From Candidatus Acidulodesulfobacterium ferriphilum (GTDB taxonomy: Bacteria; SZUA-79; Acidulodesulfobacterales; Acidulodesulfobacteraceae): DNA of 64,000 nt. Below, piece after piece: positions 52,372 to 59,246 of the stretch (its first letter is position 1; every line of letters starts with the position of its first letter). Both the position numbers and the translations under genes were made by a program. The notes beneath the pieces were generated by a model. That model was not told the DNA's origin. It ran no database searches and worked only from the letters and a program-made list of their open reading frames with translations. The stretch covers positions 813,656 to 877,655 of the forward strand of contig SGBD01000001.1 of the NCBI GenBank assembly GCA_004195035.1, read 5' to 3'.

Positions 52372-53292
52372 ATGAATAAATCAGGCAGATTTCAATATAT
52401 ATGGATTGGTTTTTTGACATTTTTTACGATTTTTGGATTTGCCGTAAATAGCCTGCTTGCGCGGGTAGCGTTAGATAAAAATGCGATAACCCCCGTATTT
52501 TATAGCTTACTCCGCCTTGGAAGCGGAGCGCTTATTCTTTTTTTATTGGTATTCCATAAAAAAAATCAGCTTCCAAAGCCGAAATACTTATCCGCATTTG
52601 CCTTATTTGCTTATGCGTTCTGTTTTTCCGTCGGTTATGTTTTTGTCGGCGTGGCGGTCGGAGCGCTTCTGTTGTTTTCCGCAGTCCAATTTACGATAAT
52701 AGGAAATGCGGTGTTTATCTATAAAGAAAGACTTAATATATTGCAAATATCAGGGGTGATAATTGCGATGGCCGGCTTTGTCTTGTTTGTATATAAAGGC
52801 TTAAATGTTCCCCAAAATATTATCGGATATTTTGGAGCCGTTATGATGATTATTTCAGGAATAGCATGGGGAATTTATACGCTAAAAGGCAAATTTGAAA
52901 AACAGTATGTATTAAGAACTGCGTCAAACTTCGTTTATTCATTAATTTATTTTATACCCTTTATCGTCATATTTGCTTTCCTAAAAAATGGTTTTATTAA
53001 CGAAAAATTTATTAATACGCCGTATGTATATTTGCATCCCATAATTTACGGTATTTTATCGGGGGCTATATTTTCGGCACTTTTCTATGTAATATGGTAT
53101 AAGGTGGTAATAAAATTATCCCGCGTTTTAGCGTCATCGGTTCAATTATTAGCGCCAGTTATGGCCGCATTTTTAGGAATAATATTTTTAAACGAAAAAA
53201 TATCATATACCTTTATAATTTCTTCTATTTTAATCTTAGGAGGCATTATACTTGTAATAATAAAGGAAAAAACTGCGGAAGCGCAAGAATAA
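52372..53292 (+). CDS. EamA-family (DMT superfamily) transporter
   Basis: The 306-residue protein has about ten predicted membrane helices in two EamA repeats (about 15-145 and 155-297). Typical pieces are SLLARVALDKNAITPVFYSLLRLGSGALIL (start about 27) and the second repeat ending LGIIFLNEKISYTFIISSILILGGIILVI. EamA proteins export or import amino acids, nucleotide sugars or other metabolites; the substrate cannot be read from the sequence. It is convergent with the JAMM gene of the sulfur operon. Confidence 0.85.
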   Translation: MNKSGRFQYIWIGFLTFFTIFGFAVNSLLARVALDKNAITPVFYSLLRLGSGALILFLLVFHKKNQLPKPKYLSAFALFAYAFCFSVGYVFVGVAVGALLLFSAVQFTIIGNAVFIYKERLNILQISGVIIAMAGFVLFVYKGLNVPQNIIGYFGAVMMIISGIAWGIYTLKGKFEKQYVLRTASNFVYSLIYFIPFIVIFAFLKNGFINEKFINTPYVYLHPIIYGILSGAIFSALFYVIWYKVVIKLSRVLASSVQLLAPVMAAFLGIIFLNEKISYTFIISSILILGGIILVIIKEKTAEAQE

Positions 53293-53418: not shown

Positions 53419-53850
53419 TCAGCCAATCACTACATCTTCCGAAACCGGGGCCGAATTTTTATCCGGCATCAGGTAGCTTTTAACATCTACGACATTTTCG
53501 GGGCTGTTGCCCTTTACCGAAAGGATTACATAAGAATAATATGGCCAGGAGGCGTTTATATCGAAACTTGAGGGTATTGCGGGGTGGTTGGGATGTGAAT
53601 GATAAAAGCCTATGATTTCCAGATTTTCCTTTCTTGCAATTTTATCCATTTCAAGCATATCTTTCGGTTCGATTTCAAAGCTGTCCCATGCTATTTTTCC
53701 AAAGCGGTTTTCGGCGGGATAAACCTTTACGATTACTCTATCGTCTCCCTCGAGCCTTCCTAAAAGCCCCCCGCATGCTTCGTACGGAAAAATTTCCGTC
53801 GCATGCTTTTTGATAATTTCAAGTTCGGTTTCCGGAATTATTATAGCCAT
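53419..53850 (-). CDS. JAMM/Mov34 metallopeptidase (Mec/HcyD-like sulfur-carrier protease)
   Basis: The 143-residue protein is a bacterial JAB1/MPN+ domain: metal-activating Glu in IFPYEACGGLLG (about 20-31) and the HSHPNHPAIPSSFD motif (HxHP...SxxD, about 83-96). Homologues (Mec+ of Mycobacterium, HcyD of Wolinella) cut near the C-terminal Gly-Gly of ThiS-like sulfur carriers to release the amino-acid product or expose the glycine for activation. The ThiS-NIL fusion in this operon has an internal Gly-Gly and is the natural substrate. It is the last gene of the minus-strand operon. Confidence 0.88.
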   Translation of the reverse strand: MAIIIPETELEIIKKHATEIFPYEACGGLLGRLEGDDRVIVKVYPAENRFGKIAWDSFEIEPKDMLEMDKIARKENLEIIGFYHSHPNHPAIPSSFDINASWPYYSYVILSVKGNSPENVVDVKSYLMPDKNSAPVSEDVVIG

Positions 53851-53934
53851 AATAAAATTATAACTTAAAAGTTAAAACATATAACTAAAATTTGTTAAAT
53901 TTTATAAGCCGCAGGGGCTTACAAAATCCTTAAA

Positions 53935-54855
53935 TTATAACTCGGTAAAAACCCTTGTAGAAAGGTATCTTGAGCCTGTGTCGGGCAATACCGTCGCAAA
54001 ATTCCCCCTGTATTTGCCCGCAAGTTTATAAATGCCGTACACATTGGCTCCGGAAGAAAATCCGCATAAAAGTCCTTCTTCTTTAATAATTCTTTTAAGC
54101 ATTGCATAGCTTCCTTCAGTGTCGACCTTTATAAAATCGTCTATAATTTTATTATGGTCGAAACCTTCGAAATTCAGGGAATAGTTGTATTTCCAACCCT
54201 CTATTCCGTGCATTTCGCTATCCGGAACTATTGCTATGACCTTTATTTTATCGTTATATTCCTTAAGCCTTTTTCCTACGCCGAGTATTGTTCCGCCAGT
54301 GCCGATGCCGGTCGCAAAACAGTCTATATTTCCGCCCGTCTGATTGAGAAGCTCCGCCGCGGTTGTTTCGTAATGCGCCAGCGGATTACACGGGTTATTA
54401 TACTGGTCCGGCATATAATATAAATCTTTGCCTCCCCTTGCGTATTCCTCCATCGACCTTTTTATTGCGCCGTCATGGCTTTCTTCCGCGGGGGTAAGTA
54501 TCAATTCCGTTCCAAAAAGCCGCATTATCTTTTTTCTTTCCTCGCTCATATTGGAAGGGGCGTAAATTTTAACCTTAATCCCCAAAAAAGCCCCTATCAT
54601 AGCAAATGAAATACCGGTATTGCCCGAAGAAGAATCGATTATGGTCATATTGTCTTTTAAAAGTCCCTTTTCAAGAGCATTTTTTATCATATACAATGCA
54701 GGTCTGTCTTTGACGGAACCGCCGGGATTAAGGCTTTCTAATTTTGCGTATAATTTTGAACCAGCCCCCGGGTTAATTATTTTGTTAAGCAAAACCGCGC
54801 CAGTGCCGCCTATATTCGACAGGGAACTAAACAGATAAGGATTATTTTTTTCCAT
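53935..54855 (-). CDS. Cysteine synthase-family PLP enzyme
   Basis: Start ATG 54855 lies within the TusA-like gene's 3' end (14-base overlap); the longer in-frame reading to 54945 would run through tusA. The 306-residue protein is fold-type II: PLP lysine in LESLNPGGSVKDRPA (about 39-53), SSGNTGIS (about 74-81), GTGGT (about 184-188) and SGANV. It belongs to the CysK/CysM group. Being next to a JAMM protease and ThiS-like carrier, it resembles mycobacterial CysM, which takes sulfur from CysO thiocarboxylate. The acceptor could be O-phosphoserine, O-acetylserine or a homoserine ester. Confidence 0.82.
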   Translation of the reverse strand: MEKNNPYLFSSLSNIGGTGAVLLNKIINPGAGSKLYAKLESLNPGGSVKDRPALYMIKNALEKGLLKDNMTIIDSSSGNTGISFAMIGAFLGIKVKIYAPSNMSEERKKIMRLFGTELILTPAEESHDGAIKRSMEEYARGGKDLYYMPDQYNNPCNPLAHYETTAAELLNQTGGNIDCFATGIGTGGTILGVGKRLKEYNDKIKVIAIVPDSEMHGIEGWKYNYSLNFEGFDHNKIIDDFIKVDTEGSYAMLKRIIKEEGLLCGFSSGANVYGIYKLAGKYRGNFATVLPDTGSRYLSTRVFTEL

Positions 54856-55090
54856 CTTTTTCGACGATAATTTCATAATCGGTATCGTTAATTTTATTAA
54901 TAGACAGGACTTTATGGCCCTGTTCCTCCATAGAGCGTGGGACATTTCTTATGGCGGGTTCATAATCGACGATAACCCTTAAAATTTCCCCTTTTTTCAT
55001 CTTTTCTAAAGCAAGTTTGGATTTTACGAATGTAAAGGGGCAAATTTCCCCTTTTATATTTAATTCGCTATTACTGTTATATTCCGGCAT
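54842..55090 (-). CDS. TusA/SirA-family sulfur-transfer protein with altered CPxP motif
   Basis: The 82-residue protein has the TusA fold opening LNIKGEICPFTFVKSKLALEKMKKGE (about 10-35), with the active-site cysteine kept but the usual CPxP reading CPFT. TusA proteins pass persulfide sulfur between donors and acceptors. Here it probably donates sulfur to the thiocarboxylate of the ThiS-NIL protein or forms persulfide for the E1 enzyme. It starts 4 bases after the E1-like gene and overlaps the cysteine synthase-like gene. Confidence 0.8.
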   Translation of the reverse strand: MPEYNSNSELNIKGEICPFTFVKSKLALEKMKKGEILRVIVDYEPAIRNVPRSMEEQGHKVLSINKINDTDYEIIVEKDGKK

Positions 55091-55094
55091 TTAA

Positions 55095-55904
55095 TTAATT
55101 CTCCTTTCTAAATTCACAAAAATCTTCATAATCTATCAAATCAAAAACGCTGGGGGACTCCCCGCATAACGGGCAGGTTTTGTCCTGCCTTAGTTTCATC
55201 TCGGTAAATTTCATATCTAATGCGTCATAGATTAAAAGTCTGCCGTTCAAGGTAAGGCCTACGCCAAGAATAATTTTTATAGCCTCGTTTGCCTGAATTG
55301 CTCCTATTACCCCGGGAAGAACTCCCAAGACCCCTGCCTCCTGACAGCTCGGAACCAAACCGGGGGGAGGGGGCGACGGAAACAAGCATCTGTAGCAAGG
55401 CCCTTCCTCCGGCAAAAATACCGTTGCCTGTCCGTCAAACCGAAAAATAGAACCGTAAACAAGGGGTTTTCTCATAAAATGGCAGGCATCGTTTATTAAA
55501 TATCTTGTCGGAAAGTTATCGGTGGCATCTATTATTACATCATAATCTTTTATTAAACCCTTTATGTTTTCCGAACTAATCTTTTCCTTATAAGTTACGA
55601 CATTAACATCGGGGTTAATCCTTGCGATAGAATCTTTTGCAGAGTCCACTTTGTACCTTCCCACGTCACGAGTGCCGTGCCATATTTGCCTTTGAAGATT
55701 AGACAGATCAACCGTATCGAAATCTACGATGCCGAGTGTTCCGATTCCTGCAGCGCCCAGATAATATCCGCAAGGAGCGCCGAGCCCTCCCGCTCCGATC
55801 AATAACACCTTTGAGGATAGTAATTTTATCTGCCCCTCGCCGCCCACCTCAGGCAATATTATATGTCTTGCATATCTTTTAATCTGTTCTTCGGTAAATT
55901 CCAA
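55095..55904 (-). CDS. ThiF/MoeB/HesA-family E1-like adenylyltransferase
   Basis: The 269-residue enzyme activates the C-terminal glycine of a ubiquitin-like sulfur carrier with ATP. Features: VLLIGAGGLGAPCGYYLGAAG (about 30-50), DLSNLQRQIWHGTRDVGRYK (about 66-85) with the catalytic Arg, DATDNFPTRYLINDAC (about 127-142), the catalytic cysteine loop GLVPSCQEAGVLGVLPG, and zinc cysteines CYRC and CPLC. No rhodanese domain is fused, so sulfur must come from another protein such as the TusA-like neighbour. Partner: the ThiS-NIL protein 32 bases upstream. Confidence 0.9.
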   Translation of the reverse strand: MEFTEEQIKRYARHIILPEVGGEGQIKLLSSKVLLIGAGGLGAPCGYYLGAAGIGTLGIVDFDTVDLSNLQRQIWHGTRDVGRYKVDSAKDSIARINPDVNVVTYKEKISSENIKGLIKDYDVIIDATDNFPTRYLINDACHFMRKPLVYGSIFRFDGQATVFLPEEGPCYRCLFPSPPPPGLVPSCQEAGVLGVLPGVIGAIQANEAIKIILGVGLTLNGRLLIYDALDMKFTEMKLRQDKTCPLCGESPSVFDLIDYEDFCEFRKEN

Positions 55905-55936
55905 AATATTATATCCTCCGTTAAATTTTGCATTAG

Positions 55937-56452
55937 TTATTCTACCACATCGAGAACAATTGGTTCCACCGTTACGCCTTTTGATTCCAAAAATTTGATG
56001 GCTTTTTCTATCTCCCTAGGTTCGCCTTCTATCTCTATAGCAATTATTCCTATATCGTTCGAGATACTTGCACTTCTTATATTTGTAATAACATTGTAAT
56101 TTTTACCTGCAAGATAGATTAGCGGTTCTTTAATAGCTTCCTGTGGATAGTTAAGATAAAATTTTTTCTTTTCGGCCGCGCCTCCCGCAATTGCGGGAAT
56201 TATGGAAATCGTGTCCCCGTCTTGAACTTTTGAATTTATGCTGTCTATAAATCTGATATCCTCATCGTTAAGATAAACATTAACAAATCTCCTAACTTGG
56301 TCATTCTGTTCACATATTCTTTCTTTAATACCCGCAAAATTTTTTTCAAGGTCGTTTATTATTTCGATAATGGTTGAACCGTTAGAATCGACCTCCGCTT
56401 TTCCGTTAGTTAAAGACCTTAAAGGTGTTGGTATTCTGACTTTTACTGACAT
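55937..56452 (-). CDS. ThiS/MoaD-like sulfur carrier fused to a NIL domain
   Basis: Residues 1-91 are a ubiquitin-like sulfur carrier (VRIPTPLRSLTNGKAEV at 5-21; NVYLNDEDIRF; GDTISIIPAIAGG, with Gly-Gly at 90-91). Residues about 96-171 are a NIL domain (FYLNYPQEAIKEPLIYLAGKNYNVITNIRSASI), the fold that binds methionine in MetN transporters and occurs in homocysteine-forming proteins. A carrier must end in Gly-Gly to be adenylated, so this fusion needs cutting after Gly91, as for Wolinella HcyS, where a JAMM protease trims the tail. The operon's JAMM gene fits that role. Confidence 0.85.
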   Translation of the reverse strand: MSVKVRIPTPLRSLTNGKAEVDSNGSTIIEIINDLEKNFAGIKERICEQNDQVRRFVNVYLNDEDIRFIDSINSKVQDGDTISIIPAIAGGAAEKKKFYLNYPQEAIKEPLIYLAGKNYNVITNIRSASISNDIGIIAIEIEGEPREIEKAIKFLESKGVTVEPIVLDVVE

Positions 56453-56548
56453 TTAATCCTCCTGCTATGATAATTATAAATTATTATTATTTATGATAAG
56501 AATTTTTTATTTTATACTTTTTTTAAAATTTAAATAATTTAAGTTCTT

Positions 56549-57793
56549 TTAGCTTTTACCCCTGATTTTAGCAAGCACCTTTTCGAATTCTTCCAAATTT
56601 GCATCGATAGTTGCCGGTTCTTTCAGCTTTCCGTTAATTGCCTCCAGCGTTTTTAAGCCGTTGCCCGTTATGGCAAGAACCGTAGTTTCATTTTTATTGA
56701 TATAACCCTTGTCTATCAGCTTTTTTGCCACGGCAACGGTGACGCCGCCGGCGGTTTCGGTAAATATTCCTTCCGTTTTGGCTAAAAGTTTCATCCCTTC
56801 GACGATTTCATCATCCGTTGCATCCTCGCCGTATCCCCCTGTTTTACTCATAAGGTCAGAGGCATAATATCCATCGGCAGGGTTGCCTATTGCAAGAGAT
56901 TTTGCTATCGTGTCCGGGGTTTTAACCGGCTTGATGAATTCCCTTTTTTCTTTGACGGCGGCGGTTATCGGGTTGCATCCCGCAGCCTGAGCGCCAAAAA
57001 TTTTGGTATGCGGCTTTTCTTTTAGCAGGCCGCAATATTCGAATTCGTCTATCGCCTTTCCAACCTTTGTAATTAAAGAACCTCCAGCCATAGGAACAAC
57101 CACATTATCCGGCGCTTTAAAGCCGAGCTGTTCAAGCATTTCGAAGGTAAGCGATTTTGAACCTTCGGCATAATACGGCCTTAAATTGATATTGACAAAA
57201 CCCCAGTTATGTTTTCCCGCAATTTCCGTGCAAAGCCTGTTGACCTTGTCATAACTCCCGTCAATTTTAACCAAATTGGTGTCGTAAATCAAAGTCCCCA
57301 AAACCTTTCCGATTTCAAGGTTTGAAGGAATAAATACAAAACTTTCGTAACTTGCCGACGCCGCCAAAGCCGCAACCGCGTTGGCAAGATTTCCAGTCGA
57401 AGCGCATGCCACAACCTTAAAGCCAAATTCTTTAGCTTTGGCTATCGCAACAGACACAACCCTGTCTTTAAAGGATAATGTAGGGAAATTTACGGCATCG
57501 TTTTTGACATATAATTCTTTAACGCCTAATTCCTTTGCAAGATTATCCGCTTTCACAAGAGGGGTATAGCCCACATTTTTACCTATTTTAATTTCCCCTT
57601 TTATTGGAAGCAGTTCGCGATAACGCCACATATTAGGCTCTCTGGATTTAATTTTATCGATACTTATGTGTTTTTTAATTTCGTCATAATCGTAATCTAC
57701 CTCAAGAGGTCCGAAGCAGTAATCGCAAACATAAAGGGGGCTGTCAGGGTATTCTTTGCCGCATTCACGGCATTTTAAACCTTTAACGAACAT
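56549..57793 (-). CDS. thrC: Threonine synthase-like PLP enzyme
   Basis: The 414-residue protein is a class I-type threonine synthase: N-terminal rubredoxin-like CxxC pairs (CRECGKEYPDSPLYVCDYC, about 7-25), the PLP lysine in FPTLSFKDRVVSVA (about 104-117), STGNLANAVAA (about 133-143) and AAGCNPI with a GGVTVAV segment later. It normally makes threonine from O-phosphohomoserine. Here it leads an operon of sulfur-transfer genes behind a SAM-I riboswitch, which is unusual for threonine synthesis and leaves open that it makes homocysteine by adding sulfur to a homoserine ester. It is the first gene, 97 bases beyond the attenuator. Confidence 0.85.
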   Translation of the reverse strand: MFVKGLKCRECGKEYPDSPLYVCDYCFGPLEVDYDYDEIKKHISIDKIKSREPNMWRYRELLPIKGEIKIGKNVGYTPLVKADNLAKELGVKELYVKNDAVNFPTLSFKDRVVSVAIAKAKEFGFKVVACASTGNLANAVAALAASASYESFVFIPSNLEIGKVLGTLIYDTNLVKIDGSYDKVNRLCTEIAGKHNWGFVNINLRPYYAEGSKSLTFEMLEQLGFKAPDNVVVPMAGGSLITKVGKAIDEFEYCGLLKEKPHTKIFGAQAAGCNPITAAVKEKREFIKPVKTPDTIAKSLAIGNPADGYYASDLMSKTGGYGEDATDDEIVEGMKLLAKTEGIFTETAGGVTVAVAKKLIDKGYINKNETTVLAITGNGLKTLEAINGKLKEPATIDANLEEFEKVLAKIRGKS

Positions 57794-57888
57794 TTTTTCT
57801 CCTTCTTTTAAGTTGTTTTATTTAAGCTGTCTATTTTTTTATTTAAGCTGTATATTTTAAGATAATGACAAAATGCCGGATTGAAACT

Positions 57889-57930
57889 AAAAAACCCCTT
57901 CTTCCTGATAAATATAGAAGAAGGGGTTTT
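57889..57930 (-). terminator. Intrinsic terminator of the SAM-I riboswitch
   Basis: On the minus strand AAAACCCCTTCTTC pairs over 14 bases with GAAGAAGGGGTTTT around a 12-base loop, followed by a run of six T. It sits directly after the SAM aptamer and before thrC, forming the riboswitch expression platform. Binding of SAM should favour this hairpin and stop transcription of the operon. Confidence 0.9.
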
Positions 57931-57943
57931 AAAAACTCAATTC

Positions 57944-58050
57944 TTCTTATCTTCCAGGGATTAACCTGCGGGAATTAGCACCGATTTCTATATTGCTATC
58001 GGTTGCTGCGGTATCTAACGGGCCCGTCCCTCCACCGCTCTTGATAAGAA
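57944..58050 (-). promoter_or_regulatory. SAM-I riboswitch (S-box leader)
   Basis: Read on the minus strand, stem P1 pairs TTCTTATC with GATAAGAA. The core has the S-box signatures GAGCGGTGGAGGGACGGGCCC, then CCGCAGCAACC, GGTGCTAATTCC-type joining sequence, CGCAGG and TCCCTGGAAGATAAG, closing P1. These are the conserved helices and the kink-turn of SAM-I aptamers. A strong terminator follows at once. The riboswitch heads the operon that contains thrC, ThiS-NIL, E1, TusA-like, cysteine synthase-like and JAMM genes. Confidence 0.94.
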
Positions 58051-58340: not shown

Positions 58341-59246
58341 ATGTCTAATAAGTCCGGCAGTTATTGTTCTGAACAGGAACATAATCTAATTGCTAATTGC
58401 TTAATATGCGGGCATTCTCTTGAATATCTGCCTTTCGCCGTCGAGCTGACCTGTTTTTACTGCGGCAAAAAAGAAAAGGGGAGTATCGTTTGTTCGTCGG
58501 ATAGGTCTCATTACGTTTGCGACGACTGCCATAACCTATCTTCTTTCAATTATATAAAAGATTTTATATTATCTACGGAAGGCAAAAACCCTTTCGAAAT
58601 TACATTCGATATTTTAAATAATCCAAGCGTAACGGTGCCTATGTTAGGATGCCACCATGCTTATATTTTAACGGGAGCGGTTTTAGCTTCGCTAAAAAAC
58701 AGGGGATACGTGCATATTTCAGAAGCCGATATCGAAGAAGCGTTTTACAGGCTCTCAAAGCAGGCTGTAGGAGGCTACTGCGGCTTAAGCGGCGTTTGCG
58801 GCATAGTTCCTGCGGGCGGTATCGTATATTCAATTTTAACCGGTTCGGTCTGCGGCAAGGATATTGAACAAAAAATAACCATGAAGATTACGGCTCTTCT
58901 TTCCAAAGCCGTATTCGATTTAACGGGACCTTCATGCTGTAAAGCTTATCTCTTTAAGGCTCTTGAGATAATCTCCGCAAGTCTTTACGAAGATTTTAAC
59001 TTTCTTTTAATAGATAACGATGTAGATATATCATGCAATTTCAAGGAACTGCATCCCCATGGGTGCATGCAGGAAAAATGCCCTTATTTTGCCCCTTCTT
59101 ATACCGTTAGCGTCGAATGGTTAAAAGAAAATTTGAAAGATACGGCTATATCCCGGTTCCTCAAGGTTGCTCCCGTTGAAATAAGTTTGAAGCTCGATAA
59201 ATCCAGCCTTGAAAGCAATAACAATATACCTCCTGCTCCCTGCTGA
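58341..59246 (+). CDS. DUF5714-type Cys-rich protein
   Basis: The 301-residue protein has an N-terminal Cys-rich part with CxxC pairs (CLICGH, CFYCGK, HYVCDDCHN, about 20-65), a signature PMLGCHHAYILTGAVLASLKNRG (about 99-121), then GGYCGLSGVCGIVPAGG (about 143-159) and GPSCCKAYLFKALE (about 204-217), ending with CMQEKCPYF. This matches my memory of the DUF5714 family of anaerobes, often near radical SAM or methyltransferase genes, whose function is unknown. The many cysteines suggest metal or Fe-S binding. It is divergent from the SAM-riboswitch operon and adjacent to the RND efflux genes. Confidence 0.6.
   Translation: MSNKSGSYCSEQEHNLIANCLICGHSLEYLPFAVELTCFYCGKKEKGSIVCSSDRSHYVCDDCHNLSSFNYIKDFILSTEGKNPFEITFDILNNPSVTVPMLGCHHAYILTGAVLASLKNRGYVHISEADIEEAFYRLSKQAVGGYCGLSGVCGIVPAGGIVYSILTGSVCGKDIEQKITMKITALLSKAVFDLTGPSCCKAYLFKALEIISASLYEDFNFLLIDNDVDISCNFKELHPHGCMQEKCPYFAPSYTVSVEWLKENLKDTAISRFLKVAPVEISLKLDKSSLESNNNIPPAPC

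Follow-up and report, generated by a model that had tools for sequence, protein, structure and literature searches.

Six genes running in the same direction on the minus strand (58050-53419) of a 64,000-nucleotide stretch of the genome of the uncultured SZUA-79 bacterium Candidatus Acidulodesulfobacterium ferriphilum (contig SGBD01000001.1; hereafter the window) follow a SAM-I riboswitch, the S-box element that senses S-adenosylmethionine (SAM), and very probably form a homocysteine pathway of the MetM/MetO type under SAM-I control. The genes encode, in order, a threonine synthase-like protein, a ThiS-NIL protein, a ThiF/E1-type enzyme, a TusA protein, a cysteine synthase-like protein (CysM-like) and a JAMM metalloprotease. 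The core of this pathway is already known, and the operon is a variant of the Streptomyces MetM/MetO pathway, set apart by a ThiS-NIL proprotein as carrier and by its links to JAMM and CysM.

The riboswitch aptamer (57944..58050, minus strand) matches Rfam model RF00162 over the full model (positions 1-108) at 82.2 bits, well above the gathering score of 44.4 (E 7e-18), and is the only SAM-I in the window's genome (1.87 Mb, 97.3% complete). Between the aptamer and the MetM-like gene sits an intrinsic terminator (57889..57931, minus strand) with a 15-pair stem and a U run, the hairpin of which folds in isolation at -21.3 kcal/mol. In minimum free energy predictions, a transcript truncated before the 3' arm of the terminator adopts an antiterminator fold in which the 3' strand of P1 pairs with the terminator 5' arm (approximate limits 57907..57957, minus strand), and the 176-nt leader is more stable than shuffled sequences (z -6.1). 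The leader is thus an ordinary S-box layout in which transcription stops when SAM is present. SAM-I was matched in 14 of the 16 genomes of the window's family and precedes the MetM-type gene in all 14, each leader carrying a terminator hairpin of comparable strength (-17 to -27 kcal/mol) and altered sequence. Of the two family genomes without a SAM-I match, one has the operon truncated at the end of a contig and the other yielded no MetM-type gene. Beyond the family, 12 of 50 MetM-bearing genomes have a SAM-I above the cut-off, and 11 of these elements lie upstream of the MetM gene set, an association that strengthens the methionine reading. The twelfth (L174, genome G047) precedes a DUF39/HcyBio homocysteine gene; as that genome also carries a MetM/ThiS-NIL/JAMM locus (L103), two homocysteine routes may coexist there.

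The gene set is conserved along with its leader. The order MetM, ThiS-NIL, E1, TusA, CysM is kept in the family loci that were read, with the JAMM gene directly behind the operon or, in one genus, a few kilobases off. The closest named homologues of the MetM-like protein come from metagenome-assembled genomes (MAGs) of the SZUA-79 group (98 and 90% identity), and other phyla also possess MetM-like genes accompanied by a ThiS or ThiS-NIL carrier, in some cases together with SAM-I. This conservation within the family and in other phyla rules out chance or mis-annotation as the source of the arrangement. The original prediction, made from the letters of the window, had placed a SAM-I riboswitch with terminator at the head of a six-gene operon, and every part of that description was borne out by the RF00162 match, the profile matches and the folds; the co-occurrence of the operon with an S-box likewise proved to be conserved across the family genomes.

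Shutting off a genuine threonine synthase with SAM would be odd, as that prediction had remarked, and the genome has a separate operon of homoserine dehydrogenase (hom), an ordinary thrC and a homoserine kinase of the phosphoglycerate mutase type (518 bits to TIGR02535, with a cut-off of 446), so that both threonine and O-phosphohomoserine are made outside the SAM-I operon. A classical GHMP homoserine kinase was considered for this step and gave nothing above cut-off, the mutase-like enzyme beside thrC filling it instead. Conventional sources of homocysteine were sought across the family genomes. No full PF01053 enzyme (MetB/MetC/MetY) was found, the best matches covering a third of the model at about 33 bits; these partial matches (open reading frames of about 384 aa) were not counted, real PF01053 enzymes in the outgroups scoring 290-530 bits. 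DUF39/HcyBio was not found in these genomes, nor was MetX, in a search that left aside MetA (PF04204). We know of no enzyme that would use an acyl-homoserine where a PF01053 enzyme is lacking. By elimination, the SAM-I operon is left as the homocysteine route and appears to be the only one in this organism and its group. The thiocarboxylate route to homocysteine originally proposed is therefore upheld by the separate ThrC, the alternatives not found (metX, metY/metB and DUF39), the conserved S-box and the clade membership of the leading gene.

That gene (56549..57793, minus strand) encodes a threonine synthase-like pyridoxal phosphate (PLP) enzyme of 414 aa, the predicted MetM, which matches TIGR00260 at 275 bits and retains the PLP lysine in an SFKDR motif. 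In a maximum likelihood tree of 72 proteins (quick search, Shimodaira-Hasegawa-like approximate likelihood ratio test (SH-aLRT) support, no bootstrap), a branch with 100% SH-aLRT separates all 42 MetM-type rows from the ThrC rows, be they the genome's own, those of its relatives or those taken from solved structures. Five PDB ThrC rows, transcribed manually from printed alignments, may contain small errors, but the split is independent of them because the genome-derived ThrC rows lie on the same side. Many alignment positions distinguish the two groups, for example RPYY in MetM versus NPYR in ThrC. The MetM clade extends to a protein of the actinomycete Nonomuraea gerenzanensis that is 50.7% identical to that of the window, and in its locus SAM-I is followed by MetM and by a ThiS whose last residues are AGG, with no CysM nearby. 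The leading gene, suspected in the original prediction of a changed function, thus groups away from bona fide ThrC, and the changed function is one already known, that of the MetM described in Streptomyces in 2024. The acceptor enzyme of the pathway is most likely this ThrC-like protein acting on O-phosphohomoserine. An N-terminal zinc ribbon was also considered as a MetM marker and rejected, since long ThrC-like proteins that fall outside it (L077, L078; 415-432 aa) are similar in length and the threonine synthase model PRK08197 spans the region too.

The adjoining gene (55937..56452, minus strand) encodes a 171-aa protein in which a ThiS/MoaD-type sulfur carrier domain (56180..56452; PF02597), ending in IPAIAGG, is followed by a NIL domain (55940..56179; PF09383, 49 bits, above the cut-off). 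An AlphaFold model of the protein has two folded domains, of which the first matches CysO structures (Z 17.4), and between them, precisely at residues 88-91 (IAGG), the predicted local distance difference test score (pLDDT) drops below 50. The Gly-Gly of the conserved PAIAGG (residues 90-91; 56180..56185) lies inside the chain, so the carrier needs a cut, for which this is the predicted site. Among 80 named loci drawn from many phyla, 74 have a carrier with PA(I/V)AGG close to MetM, and three of the six exceptions run off their contig. The Gly-Gly is followed by nothing in 5 loci, by 1-22 residues in 56 and by a NIL domain in 13; such a variable tail behind an invariant motif fits removal of the tail, and proteolytic maturation of the carrier looks general across MetM loci. 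JAMM genes accompany 11 of 13 fused but 17 of 61 unfused loci (Fisher p 2e-4, kinship ignored). However, the association is not significant in tree-aware pairs, the tree having only about four changes of fusion state, and it was dropped as proof of a JAMM role.

The remaining genes supply the parts expected of a thiocarboxylate system. The E1-like adenylyltransferase of the MoeB/ThiF type (55095..55904, minus strand; 269 aa; PF00899, 285 bits) consists of a ThiF domain only, with the GAGGLG motif and two CxxC motifs intact, and is followed by a TusA-family sulfurtransferase (54842..55090, minus strand; 82 aa; PF01206, 77 bits; CPFT motif) that is the probable persulfide donor. The JAMM/Prok-JAB metalloprotease (53419..53850, minus strand; 143 aa; PF14464, 75 bits) has an intact HxHx7SxxD motif and is the sole PF14464 match in the genome; the family genomes with JAMM have exactly one each, near the operon, or at a contig edge in one genome. 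The cysteine synthase-like PLP enzyme (53935..54855, minus strand; 306 aa) matches TIGR01136 at 290 bits, below the 344-bit cut-off, and its nearest solved structures are cysteine synthases and O-acetylserine sulfhydrylases. Its start, MEKNNPYLF, overlaps tusA by 14 bases, and the longer listed open reading frame overlaps tusA too.

The genome has four fold-II PLP enzymes: besides ThrC and the MetM-like and CysM-like proteins there is one of TrpB size. A genuine serine acetyltransferase gene (cysE) is also present. As the sole cysteine synthase candidate in a genome with a real cysE, the CysM-like protein is most simply a cysteine synthase, and the presence of cysE suggests O-acetylserine instead of O-phosphoserine as its acceptor. 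The original prediction had left the addition of sulfur to either the ThrC-like or the CysM-like enzyme; the former stands as the most likely candidate, whereas the latter more likely makes cysteine. Unless an internal promoter exists, the position of this sole candidate behind a SAM switch implies that both sulfur amino acids depend on a single carrier and a single signal. Such combined control is unusual but not without precedent, as S-boxes also control sulfate assimilation in Bacillus. At two further loci (L098, L136), SAM-I lies upstream of a cysteine synthase-like gene preceding MetM, and another gene of this type lies behind; a SAM-controlled cysteine synthase is thus not unique to the window's family.

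In the pathway that we propose, scarcity of SAM would allow the leader antiterminator to form and the operon to be transcribed. The ThiS-NIL proprotein would be cut by JAMM after the Gly-Gly, the freed carboxylate would be adenylated by the E1 enzyme, and sulfur from a TusA persulfide would convert it to the thiocarboxylate. The threonine operon would supply O-phosphohomoserine through its homoserine dehydrogenase and homoserine kinase, and MetM would combine the PLP intermediate formed from this substrate with the carrier sulfur to yield homocysteine. The CysM-like enzyme probably draws on the same carrier to make cysteine, in which case one carrier may serve both amino acids. Homocysteine would then be methylated by a MetH-type enzyme, and the genome has a single methionine synthase-type protein (PF02574; an 826-aa frame at G000:C5:27183-27995, outside the window). 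The B12 methionine synthase reactivation domain PF02965 was not found in this genome, so B12 reactivation must differ from that of Escherichia coli MetH.

Comparison with known systems places the operon closest to that of Streptomyces, in which, according to a 2024 report by Hasebe et al., the ThrC homologue MetM is said to form homocysteine from O-phosphohomoserine and the MetO thiocarboxylate. The two share a ThrC homologue, a ThiS-type carrier, an upstream SAM riboswitch and the lack of canonical homocysteine genes, and the same layout recurs in N. gerenzanensis, the nearest actinomycete locus found. In contrast to Streptomyces, the operon belongs to a different phylum, its carrier is a ThiS-NIL proprotein with an internal Gly-Gly, and it adds dedicated E1, TusA, JAMM and CysM-like genes. 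A thiocarboxylate carrier for homocysteine was also reportedly described by Krishnamoorthy and Begley in 2011 for HcyS/HcyD/HcyF of Wolinella succinogenes. The E1, the JAMM protease and a carrier that needs trimming to expose its Gly-Gly are common to both, but the Wolinella acceptor enzyme is an O-acetylhomoserine sulfhydrylase (MetY), and the window's family is without a full PF01053 protein. The Mec/CysO/CysM system of Mycobacterium tuberculosis likewise brings together a carrier of CysO-like fold, a CysM-like enzyme and a JAMM protein. It differs in that CysO has no NIL domain and the mycobacterial E1, MoeZ, has a rhodanese domain, whereas the E1 of the window lacks rhodanese and is accompanied by TusA; the window further adds the ThrC-like enzyme and SAM-I. 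A NIL domain also takes part in the DUF39 (HcyBio)/NIL-ferredoxin/COG2122 homocysteine route of Desulfovibrio and methanogens (PMC5764234), and SAM-I precedes the DUF39 gene in one related genome, but DUF39 itself was not found in the window's family. The combination of ThiS/MoaD carrier, JAB, E1, SirA/TusA and cysteine synthase was already tabulated in a survey of sulfur operons (Iyer, Burroughs and Aravind 2006, rows 4c and 4e; PMC1779556), the text of which, when searched, yielded no mention of threonine synthase, NIL or methionine. For metM itself, a further paper, which cites the 2024 report, places a SAM riboswitch upstream and a gene similar to metO beside it (PMC12172450).

Several points weigh against a MetM-type homocysteine operon. 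The tree rows leave out the experimentally tested Streptomyces MetM sequence, and a Microcystis MetM homologue is described as having threonine synthase activity in vitro (PMC12172450), which means that specificity is not readable from sequence alone. The elimination of other routes leaves room for MetA, and in a genome that is 97.3% complete a gene could be missing, although the absences hold across the relatives. For the genome's sole cysteine synthase to stand under SAM control would also be odd unless read-through or an internal promoter relieves it.

Two alternatives would reassign the enzymes. The thiocarboxylate system could make only cysteine, as in Mec/CysO/CysM, with the leading gene a second true threonine synthase linked to it by chance. 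The only CysM-like gene and the JAMM gene both lie in the operon and a genuine serine acetyltransferase is at hand, as such a system would have it, yet threonine has its own operonic ThrC, from which the leading protein is separated by clade, and carrier reading frames accompany MetM in 74 of 80 loci, several of them without CysM nearby. SAM-I is, moreover, a methionine-pathway signal, and searches for PF01053, DUF39 and MetX turned up no other homocysteine route, all of which makes a cysteine-only system very unlikely. Conversely, the CysM-like enzyme could form homocysteine from a homoserine ester, leaving the ThrC-like protein some other role. PLP fold-II sulfhydrylases can accept related substrates and the gene belongs to the operon, but the genome would then be left without a cysteine synthase despite a cysE to feed it, and MetM-carrier pairs without a nearby CysM exist, as in Nonomuraea, so that we regard this assignment as highly improbable.

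A further alternative is a sub-variant of the MetM-type pathway, with which its probability overlaps. Here NIL would be a stabilising or docking tail, JAMM would mainly release the product amino acid, and another protease would mature the carrier. Mec+ hydrolyses CysO-cysteine in Mycobacterium (PMC3227635), a precedent for release by JAMM, and the excess of JAMM at fused loci agrees with it as far as an association that fails relatedness correction can. However, the internal Gly-Gly makes a cut chemically required before adenylation, and the JAMM-bearing family genomes have one such protease to perform it, near the operon except where it lies at a contig edge. This division of labour is possible, though not the reading that we favour.

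The NIL domain model matches the C2/NIL regulatory domain of MetN (Z 12.4, VIA-align), and at 45 of the 61 unfused loci MetM has a separate NIL reading frame of about 78 aa close by. N124, the equivalent of MetN N295, is invariant in 14 aligned fused carriers, the pairwise alignment to MetN on which this equivalence depends being weak (E 0.1), and the motif around this asparagine (NI.xA) is present in 45 of 50 stand-alone NIL proteins. In MetN, mutation of Asn295 abolishes the binding of methionine, and the inhibition constant becomes 28-fold higher (PMC12357092). We hypothesize from these similarities that the NIL domain may bind or sense methionine. It is conceivable, if rather doubtful, that ThiS-NIL is a methionine-gated proprotein in which methionine bound by NIL would block maturation by JAMM, or use of the carrier, with the one carrier feeding both cysteine and homocysteine synthesis; if so, methionine feedback at the protein level would be added to SAM control at the RNA level. 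More broadly, the recurrence of NIL beside or fused to a sulfur carrier, in another homocysteine route and in a methionine importer suggests that NIL is linked quite generally to the supply of methionine. Separately, several Nitrospirota loci (L099, L100, L104, L108 and others) keep the order MetM, ThiS, stand-alone NIL (78 aa) and true ThrC, placing the methionine and threonine branches from O-phosphohomoserine side by side.

The distinction between MetM and ThrC has consequences for annotation. TIGR00260 calls such genes threonine synthase, with no MetM-specific NCBIfam model among the matches, and SZUA-79, Nitrospirota, Nitrospinota, Omnitrophota and many deltaproteobacterial MAGs can therefore look methionine-auxotrophic while holding a spare threonine synthase. 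Membership of the MetM clade, a PAIAGG carrier and the association with SAM-I together provide a simple rule by which the annotation can be corrected.

Two plus-strand genes flank the operon. The divergent neighbour (58341-59246) encodes a DUF5714 protein that is rich in cysteine and related to MbdU, a metal-binding double selenoprotein (298 bits, short of the cut-off of 600); its terminal TGA is closely trailed by more stops, which does not suggest selenocysteine read-through. At the other end, an EamA-type transporter gene (52372-53292), which matches an O-acetylserine/cysteine exporter model weakly (27 bits, far below cut-off), adjoins the operon and is convergent with the JAMM gene.

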